The translations under genes and the position numbers were made by a program. From NCBI RefSeq assembly GCF_003610995.1, contig NZ_CP032543.1:3100001-3164000 (forward strand): 64,000 nt of DNA, read 5' to 3'. A model generated the notes under the pieces. The model had not been told where the DNA came from, searched no databases, and worked only from the letters and a program-made list of their open reading frames with translations. Below, one piece after another: positions 974 to 18,935 of this stretch. This DNA comes from Streptomyces griseus subsp. griseus (GTDB lineage Bacteria > Actinomycetota > Actinomycetes > Streptomycetales > Streptomycetaceae). Numbering within the stretch: the first letter of the stretch is position 1; every line of letters begins with the position of its first letter.

Positions 974-2991
974 TCAGCGGGCGGGCAGCGCGGGACTCCC
1001 GCACACCAGCAGCGGGCCGCCCGGAACCGTCGCGTACAGGACTCCGGCGTGGGCCGCGAGGGCGGTGCGCGGGCCGGGCGGCGGACCCGGCGCCCCCGCG
1101 TCCGTGAAGGGGACGGGGCCGTCGGCCGGACCCGCCGGGAGCCGGGTGCGCAGCCGGCCGTCGGCGGTGACCGCCCAGAGCCGGCAGTTCAGCGTGGCCA
1201 GGGCGAGGGCGCCGCCCGCGTCCCCCAGCACCCGCCACGGTCCGTCCGGGGCCAGGGCGGACAGGTGGTGCAGAGTGTCGTCGTGCGGGGTCACGGCGAA
1301 GATCCCGGCGTCGCAGAGCGCCAGCCCGGTCGTCCCCGGGGGCACCTCGCCCACCTCGGCCCACTCCTCCTCGTGGGGTGCGGCCTCCGGGGCGCGACGC
1401 AGCAGCCGGCCGTCCTCGGTGGCCGCGTACAGTTCCAGCGGCAGCCCGCCGGCCGCCTCGCGCCCCGCGGCCATCGCCAGGACGCGCGGCGCGGTCCCCA
1501 CCGGGCGCCAGGGCAGGTTCTGCCCGGAGACCGCCCGGCAGAGCAGCCTGCCCCGGGTGTCCGCGCCGAACAGGACGGACTCGCAGGCCGCGAGCGCCCG
1601 CACCTCGTCCGGCCCGCCCGCCACGTCCCAGCCGCCGCCGGGGGCCGCGCCGCTCAGCCGGTCCAGCACGTTGCGGGTCACCCGGTCGACGACCGGGTCG
1701 TCCGCCAGGACGCTCCCCCAGTTGATCGTCCCCGCGTTGAACACCGTGCCCGCGCCGAGCCGGAAGACGCCCATCGTGGCCGCCCCGCCCTGCCCGTACT
1801 CGCGCCAGTGCCGCAGGTCGGCGGTGGCCAGCACGACGAAGGAACCGGGGGTGCCGTCCACACCCGTCGCCCTCGGCACCCCGTCGGTCCACTCCAGCGC
1901 GCAGGCGTCCGTCTCGTAGCCGAGGGCTCCGCGCGCGAAGGGTTCGCCGTCGGTGAGGCCGGTGCCCTCGAAGGCCCAGTGGTCCGCGAACCGGGCCGTG
2001 TACGCCTCCTTCCCCATCACCGCCATGCCCTCGCCCCAGGCGCCCGCACCCCGACGGAAGCTGAGGCCGGTCATGGTGTTCTCCGGGCGGTCGACGGGGG
2101 CGCTGGACCACTCCACGGTGGTGCGGCGCGGGTCGATCGCCGTCATCGGGTCGCTCACCGCGTCCCGGTGGCAGACCATGGTGCGCCCGTCGTCCTCCAG
2201 ACGCATCTGCCACCAGGCGGTGTTGGCCGCGAAGAAGGCGACGTTGCCGCCGCGCCGGGCGAAGGCCTCGACGCTGTCGCGCATCTCCATCGACCAGTAC
2301 TCGTCATGCCCGTTCACCACCAGCATGCGGTAGTGGGAGAGCAGTTCGTCGCCGTTGTGCAGGTCGAGGCCGGAGCAGAAGTCCACCTGGTAGCCGGCGC
2401 CGGGGAGCCAGCGCAGCAACCCCTCCTCCCAGCGCTCGGGGGGCGGGCCGCCTCCCGGGGCGTCGAAGGGGACGCGGGCCGCGCGGTAGGGCTGCTCGGC
2501 GTAGTACAGGCCCCGGTGCGGCTGACCGGCGTGGGTGTAGGCCCGCCAGGTGGCGAAGGGGATCGAGACGAGGATGCGGGAGGCGGTGCCGGGGCGGGCG
2601 GCGCGCACCGCGAACCAGACCTCGTGCTCGGCCTCGCAGGTGGGGGCCGGTTCTCCTCCGGTACGTCGAAGGTGGCGCGGTAGAGGGAGCTGGGCCACTC
2701 CTCGGGGACGGTCAGCGTCCAGTCGGGGGCGCGGAGCGTGGCGGTGAGCCGGACCTGCTCACCGATGACCTCGGTGACCGTGACCCGTACGGCAGCCCCG
2801 GCGGCTCCCGTCAGATGGAAGGCCAGGTCGTCGCCCTGGGCACAGGAGGTCCGGTCGGCCCGGGCGCGGAGCGGCTCACCGGTGGCGGGACCGGGCGCGA
2901 CGGGGCCTGCCGTCCTCGCCTCGGGGGCCGGGCGCGTGCCGCCGTCGTCTCCCCCGGTCCCGCCCGTGCCGCCGCCGTCTCCCCCGGTCAC
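974..2991 (-). CDS. N,N-dimethylformamidase large-subunit-like protein with beta-propeller-like tail (frameshifted)
   Basis: Last gene of the NRPS operon. Its GTG at 2991 overlaps the upstream stop as GTGA and follows a GGGGAGG ribosome site. About 100 residues into the protein the frame breaks: one frame reads to VPEEN near 2650 and a second continues CEAEHEVWFAV down to the TGA at 974. Adding one base to the five-G run at 2642-2646 (plus strand) restores one frame of about 670 residues. The body matches the N,N-dimethylformamidase beta-subunit-like C-terminal family, with VVNGHDEYWS, GGNVAFFAANTAWWQ and TINWG motifs. The last 200 residues show repeated strands ending in WxV or LYA, like a tachylectin-type propeller. 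Known relatives cleave formamides; the substrate here is unknown. The break may be a sequencing error or real decay. Confidence 0.72.
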
Positions 2992-18600: not shown

Positions 18601-18935
18601 CCGTTCGTCCGCTCGGCCAGGAGCGGTCCGGCGTCCCCGGGGCGGCTCCTGAGGTCGAGGGTCTCGACCCGCACCGGCCCGGGCGCGTCCACGACGGCGA
18701 CCGGCCGCCCGTCGACATCCGCGAAGCGGGTGCGCAGGGCCTCGTGCCGGGCGACGGTCCCCTCGAACGCGGCGACGAGGGCGGGTACGGAGAGGGCGCC
18801 GGTCAGCCGCAGCACCAGGGGGATGTTGTACGACGCGTCCGTGGGGTCCAACTGGTGCAGGAACCAGAGCCGTTCCTGCCCATGACTCGGTACGAGGCCT
18901 CCGGTGGCCGTGGTTCCGCCGAGTGTGTCGATCAC
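15693..18935 (-). CDS. NRPS module C-A-PCP, basic-residue pocket; first gene of the operon
   Basis: A 1,080-residue elongation module. The C domain has HHIVADGWS at about residue 141. The A domain has HTSGSTGTPKG, NSYGPTETT and NGKLDRRAL, and the PCP has LGGHSLLATRV. The pocket reads D-T-E-D-I-G-S-I-I-K. The acidic Glu and Asp argue for a basic amino acid, and the code resembles one I recall for beta-lysine domains (DTEDVGTMVK). I chose the GTG at 18935 because a six-G ribosome site lies 8 nt upstream. An in-frame ATG at 18986 has no clear site. It begins with a C domain rather than an A domain, so it expects a chain or starter from another carrier. Confidence 0.93.
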   Translation of the reverse strand: MIDTLGGTTATGGLVPSHGQERLWFLHQLDPTDASYNIPLVLRLTGALSVPALVAAFEGTVARHEALRTRFADVDGRPVAVVDAPGPVRVETLDLRSRPGDAGPLLAERTNGAFDLAEGPLLRIALLRTDEDEHLLCLVLHHIVADGWSLNLLRTELATRYAAHLAGRPVELPEVLPYTEYARREREAARGPEAEAALDHWRERLADAPVLDLRPTVGGPPGSGAGGAFHTRRITGAGGAVDALAREKRCTPFMVLLAAYQVLLHRWTRQDDFCVGVPAAGRGEPELEPVIGYFSTTLVLRAELAGDPAFGDLLRRVRRSSLTAFAHDRVPFERLIDALGIERRLGSSPLFQTLLTVHTQDGPDSGEREFGGLECADVDGGHAASKVDLMLDLRREGDDLIAVLGYRTDLFDAPWAARLARHFETLLRGALAAPDTPVSELELLTPPERDELLALGTGAPEPPGGAVPLPVALARAAERYAGRTAVRAPEGELTYRELWDAAGALAVRLRAAGVRGGDTVGVLLPRGRAAITALLATWRAGAAYLPLDLDHPRPRLDFMIADTVVRVVVADPAAEGTAQLAEGVVVVAPDGAGPGTADCDPGWQAGAGDPAYVIHTSGSTGTPKGVVVPHGALAARIAWMRADYGITAADEVLQFASLSFDTHAEEVFPALTAGATLTVAGPGATLPDHLADGRGDRLTVLDLPTPYWHQLADDLDAVSWPPGLRLLILGADQVQPTAVAAWRARFGDTVRLVNSYGPTETTIIATTAELGRADAVHRPPIGSPTGSTTLTVCDAAGRLMPYGAAGELLVGGAGVTLGYGGRPGATARAFVPDPHGPPGARRYRTGDLVRWRADGQLEFLGRIDDQVKVRGFRVEPGEVEAALLALEGVGGAAVIARDQALVAYVVAASDAAGQARPELSPAGLRAALAARLPAHLVPNAVMVLPALPLTPNGKLDRRALPAPDRRPDLGGGYVAPRTDAEELVAEVWAEVLGLDRVGAADDFFELGGHSLLATRVVARIRAATEVTVPLRTLFVHRTTEAFALAVEELLLAEIEALTDEDAGRLLAAESATPRIGTQTA

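Follow-up and report, generated by a model that had tools for sequence, protein, structure and literature searches.

The NRPS operon

The 64-kb window analyzed here corresponds to bases 3100001–3164000 of the 7.24-Mb, one-contig genome of Streptomyces griseus subsp. griseus (all coordinates are those of the window) and contains a nonribosomal peptide synthetase (NRPS) operon of eight genes, A to H, which lie on the minus strand and span positions 974–18986. All seven junctions overlap (A/B, 4 nt; B/C, 4 nt; C/D, 4 nt; D/E, 8 nt; E/F, 4 nt; F/G, 14 nt; G/H, 4 nt), and the starts and stops thus bear out the arrangement described in an initial annotation made from the sequence alone. The main interest of the locus lies in an ObiF-like thioesterase (TE) with a Cys nucleophile, which follows a Ser module and is fused to an exporter, and in an additional putative tailoring enzyme with an acylase fold.

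Domains were assigned with Pfam. Gene A (15693–18986; the start may be the ATG at 18986 or the GTG at 18935) encodes a condensation–adenylation–peptidyl carrier protein (C-A-PCP) module predicted to activate a basic residue. Gene B (9754–15696) is a single 1980-aa frame in which a Ser-type C-A-PCP module and the TE (11401–12108; predicted nucleophile Cys of the YGHC motif at approximately 11899–11901) are fused to a major facilitator superfamily (MFS) exporter domain (PF07690, 10162–11169; TIGR00900 scores below its cut-off). Gene C (8210–9757) encodes an AMP-forming acyl ligase of 515 aa, predicted to activate the starter, and gene D (5113–8213), which matches in two pieces on either side of a frame slip, encodes a C-A-PCP module with a Gly-like code. 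The remaining genes encode an MbtH-like protein of 75 aa (E, 4893–5120), a free-standing acyl or peptidyl carrier protein of 94 aa (F, 4612–4896, scanned as 4612–4998), a free-standing condensation-domain protein of 545 aa that retains the HxxxDG motif (G, 2988–4625), and a protein with a dimethylformamidase/N-acylase fold and a C-terminal β-propeller (H, 974–2991; DMFA2_C, PF20254), the frame of which is also broken. The starter-loading set, the free condensation domain and the built-in exporter of the initial annotation are therefore all present as ligase C with carrier F, gene G and the TE-MFS fusion, respectively. It overlooked the Cys-type, ObiF-like character of the TE behind the Ser module, the dimethylformamidase-like nature of H, and the frame slips by which D and H are not single open frames.

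Conservation among actinobacteria

A search with the TE-MFS part of gene B matched 1331 of the scored candidate proteins, and the 120 listed carry both domains together. A relative of this part is encoded in 231 stretches of species genomes, some of which may be plain transporters because the patterns used for the search fall within the MFS part; 80 of these stretches, all of which have a TE match, were kept, and all locus counts refer to them. The order A-B-C-D-G is kept in 24 of the 80 loci, which belong to Streptomyces, Embleya, Kitasatospora, Dactylosporangium and Catellatospora, and tblastn locates E in 20, F in 22 and H in 20 of the 24. In all 21 loci in which H was located on the match strand, H is one complete frame with its start codon 4 nt inside G, when the script takes the start codon closest to the stop of G. 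Because of the conserved order and this conserved G/H overlap, the organization of the operon is more than chance. Among 246 genomes drawn from the genus, 16 match at E ≤ 1e-60, that of the window included; in two of the 16 the match is confined to the MFS part.

A TetR gene (927–226) follows the operon and a dicarboxylate symporter gene (20736–19342) precedes it. These are regarded as flanks rather than parts of the operon, because both are found in only two of the 80 loci (L021 and L025), which are from Streptomyces and are the nearest loci of this length. A phosphoenolpyruvate phosphomutase-family gene (14637–15482 of locus L064) neighbours the related cluster of a Pseudonocardia and was found in none of the remaining 79 loci.

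The initial annotation considered the gene set unrecognized and possibly new; it is instead conserved across five genera, and NCBI records already list the exporter-fused synthetase under the name "non-ribosomal peptide synthetase/MFS transporter". Within the openly licensed PMC literature, no paper was recognizable from its title or abstract as describing the gene set, although absence there does not show absence from print. The operon is an orphan but conserved actinobacterial NRPS family that is not unique to this genome.

Specificity and order of the modules

The specificity letters obtained by alignment are DTEDIGSII for A, DIVQIGVVW for D and DVWHVSLVD for B, which, on the known code tables, presumably denote a basic residue, Gly and Ser, respectively, in agreement with the three residues predicted initially. 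For the basic residue (Lys, Orn or Arg), the code strings matched no paper in the openly licensed PMC literature. Each module of the window has a single condensation-type domain, and thus there is no sign of an epimerase.

The initial annotation held that the order of the Gly and basic modules was not fixed by the sequence of the window. Relatives with fused modules now support the order Gly, basic, Ser: a D-like module precedes the basic module in all 16 relatives having both in one open frame, and in two loci (L062 and L093) the Ser module follows the Gly-like and basic modules in the same frame. The first code departs from Gly (DIVQxAGIY) in four of the 16 fused relatives (L081, L090, L091 and L099).

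The thioesterase of gene B

The nucleophile motif of the TE is YGHCAVG, and the Cys is present in the window protein and in 119 of the 120 listed homologues, the remaining one being unparsed. A Gly occupies position +27, where other TEs carry Asp; the Asp of GNRDP aligns with that of GGQDP in ObiF1, and the spacing from this Asp to the His is 30 residues, as in ObiF. Among the matches listed, ObiF1 is the nearest solved relative of the TE in both sequence and predicted-fold comparisons. The TE of ObiF1, the obafluorin synthetase, which forms a β-lactone, thus resembles that of gene B in its Cys nucleophile, in the Gly at the usual place of Asp and in the shifted, RifR-like Asp.

The code DVWHVSLVD predicts a terminal β-hydroxy amino acid, the kind of residue expected of an ObiF-type system. 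The terminal residue of obafluorin is an aryl β-hydroxy-amino acid, whereas Ser is predicted for gene B. The catalytic triad of the ObiF TE is taken from PMC6668435, where ObiF is described as having an MbtH domain together with a terminal aryl-A domain; gene B is instead fused to an MFS exporter.

The TE of SulM, which forms the β-lactam of sulfazecin, also shares the Cys nucleophile, the fold and the shifted Asp with gene B. The criteria for such β-lactam-forming TEs in PMC11298585 are a Gln-Cys-Asn motif, a diaminopropionate code and a sulfotransferase. Gene B has His-Cys-Ala and a Ser code, there is no sulfotransferase among the eight genes, and a SulM-type function was rejected.

The terminal codes of the 80 loci, read by locus-domain alignment because motif reading left seven of 120 unparsed, are Ser-type in 44, Asp-like in 18 and Cys-like in nine. 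The Cys-type code is DLYNxSLIW in L049, L056, L060, L061, L065, L066, L071 and L086 and DLWNMSMIW in L064. These nine exporter-fused terminal modules combine a condensation domain of the ordinary kind with a Cys-type TE, and the loci are possible β-thiolactone formers.

Putative starter activation and tailoring functions

Genes for E1 and E2 of a 2-oxoacid dehydrogenase lie near the NRPS genes in 13 of the 80 loci (L044, L049, L056, L060, L062, L065, L066, L070, L074, L080, L084, L086 and L087), and in ten of the 13 no ligase was found in the stretch, which hints that some relatives make a short acyl starter from a 2-oxo acid. Such E1/E2 genes are not among the eight genes of the window operon.

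Among the three PDB matches of G is 4znm (E = 6.6e-4), which we take to be SgcC5. Like G, enzymes of the SgcC5 type are free-standing condensation domains with HxxxDG, the similarity being weak.

Gene H matches PF20254 at 211.7 bits against a cut-off of 27. Its identity to the large subunit of dimethylformamidase and to N-acetyl-(R)-β-phenylalanine acylase is 21–23% in the aligned rows, and it differs from them in the C-terminal β-propeller and in its linkage to an NRPS operon. Judging from the fold, H would be an amide hydrolase. The iron ligands of dimethylformamidase-like hydrolases are presumably Tyr, Tyr and Glu, including Tyr399, and the PDB titles of the structural relatives of H name Tyr440 and Glu521 mutants. 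In H, the putative Glu ligand is aligned, the second Tyr is invariant in 20 rows with similar spacing, and the first Tyr, replaced by Cys in L021 and L025, is kept in the window and in 104 of the 120 listed homologues according to a simple pattern. A second PF20254 gene elsewhere in the same genome (genome positions 3995179–3996276) matches the family profile better than H.

Proposed pathway

Together, the gene set, the domains, the module order of fused relatives, the Cys nucleophile and the ObiF1-like predicted fold suggest an orphan pathway to an acyl-Gly-(basic)-Ser product, possibly a serine β-lactone, exported by the fused MFS domain; we put the probability of this reading at about 0.5. 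Ligase C would activate a carboxylic acid, probably a short one, and load it onto carrier F. D would then add Gly, A the basic residue and B Ser, with the MbtH-like protein E assisting the A domains. The TE of B would receive the acyl-Gly-basic-Ser chain on its Cys and release it, most likely through closure of the Ser hydroxyl on the carbonyl to give a serine β-lactone, which the MFS domain of the same polypeptide would export. G, as a trans-acting condensation domain, and H, as a putative amide hydrolase, may modify the product; H would probably remove or trim an N-acyl group.

Several observations weigh against this pathway. Two genes of the window copy are frame-broken. The starter step is not uniform in the family, because 22 of the 80 loci, some of them incomplete stretches, show neither a ligase nor E1/E2. 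The lead of ObiF in the fold comparison is modest, with a Foldseek TM-score of 0.70 against 0.68 for RifR. The same family of Cys TEs serves the 18 Asp-like and nine Cys-like loci, the basic-terminal locus L069 also keeps the Cys nucleophile, and on a quick tree the nucleophile switches from Cys to Ser just once.

With regard to the Asp-like loci, a β-hydroxylase that would make them lactone formers was sought: in the subset of neighbours scanned, no known hydroxylase family was found in nine proteins encoded at five of these loci (L085, L077, L091, L098 and L075) or in seven proteins of three others (L074, L087 and L092). Two of the nine proteins have no family and may be gene-caller artefacts, and one has a Rieske domain with DUF2231; the DUF4246 gene of L092 recurs in only three of the 80 loci. 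Because Asp has no β-hydroxyl and no known hydroxylase family turned up at the scanned loci, the Cys nucleophile need not mean a lactone.

Alternative interpretations

The alternative that fares best is that the same assembly line operates and the TE merely hydrolyzes the chain, so that a linear acyl-Gly-basic-Ser acid would be exported. In its favor, the TE fold is shared by the type II hydrolases RifR and BorB, and the family pairs with Asp-like terminal modules, which are unable to form a β-lactone without a hydroxylase. The Cys nucleophile and the position of ObiF1 as nearest relative nevertheless argue against it, and we consider it rather unlikely.

The window copy could also be a decaying pseudo-operon without a complete product. 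D slips near 6.5 kb, within its A domain, and its remainder continues in another frame. In a codon-usage scan of the 64-kb window, a method that misses small slips like the one in H, the coding of D stops 246 nt before the stop codon of its frame, and this is the longest such tail listed. D reads as one frame in all 24 core-operon loci and is split in L061, a locus at a contig edge that is not one of the 24. A near-identical intact D was not found, the search with its first part yielding only distant or partial proteins. H changes frame near 2.7 kb. A database protein of 617 aa (P0128), however, is 100% identical to H over 97% of the query and continues in one frame through the break; although it is listed with "-" as its source, a mark otherwise used for window-encoded proteins, it is taken to come from another sequence because the letters of the window do not yield it in one frame. 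Single-base slips in GC-rich stretches are typical assembly errors, and the stretch here is 75% GC. With D and H interrupted, the window copy is either mis-sequenced or recently inactivated. The slips in both genes and the long tail of D favor decay, whereas the six genes that remain open, the identical protein and the base composition speak against it, and a pseudo-operon appears unlikely.

Cyclization or oligomerization by the TE through Ser, as in an enterobactin-like trimer, or via the basic side chain is very improbable, because, although EntF likewise ends in a Ser module followed by a TE, and MxcG and EntF are among the NCBIfam matches (below cut-off), the TE is closest to ObiF1 and type II enzymes and the operon lacks chelator genes and an iron box. 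Specifically, Pfam assigned none of the eight genes to aryl-acid, catechol or hydroxamate pathways, and the iron-box consensus (at most three mismatches, 64-kb window) had no match in or just upstream of the operon, as had been stated initially; on these two grounds a siderophore cluster was rejected. EntF was not among the 50 matches listed in the TE comparisons, which excludes nothing.

Away from the operon, the only iron-box-like 19-mers matched in the window lie at 37430–37448 (one mismatch), adjoining an enterochelin-esterase gene (35923–37326, minus strand), and at 55857–55875 (two mismatches), where the neighbours encode a cardiolipin synthase on one side and a family III CoA-transferase on the other; none occurred in 100 shuffles. 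Elsewhere in the window, the frame of an archaeal-type lysyl-tRNA synthetase (50099–51862) overlaps that of an arginyl-tRNA synthetase (51371–53791) on the opposite strand, and the start of the latter probably lies further in.

Implications

PMC5490192 describes natural products with a β-lactone as uncommon yet potent. On a more speculative and distinctly doubtful extension of the serine β-lactone pathway, the operon would represent a family of NRPSs, widespread in actinobacteria and tethered to the membrane, whose products are acyl-Gly-basic-X peptides in which X is Ser, Cys or Asp. The Ser and Cys forms would be released as strained β-lactones or β-thiolactones directly into the fused exporter, N-acylase H would remove the acyl cap, and the products might be electrophilic peptides of a new class, acting as antibiotics or protease inhibitors.

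If the products are peptidyl serine β-lactones, an unseen class of reactive peptides would be encoded by many sequenced actinomycetes, the terminal module being of the Ser type in 44 of the 80 loci, and the TE-exporter fusion would link synthesis to secretion in an unusually direct way. Should no lactone form, the series of Ser, Asp, Cys and basic terminal modules, together with the one switch from a Cys to a Ser nucleophile, still offers a natural experiment that bears on why certain thioesterases employ Cys.
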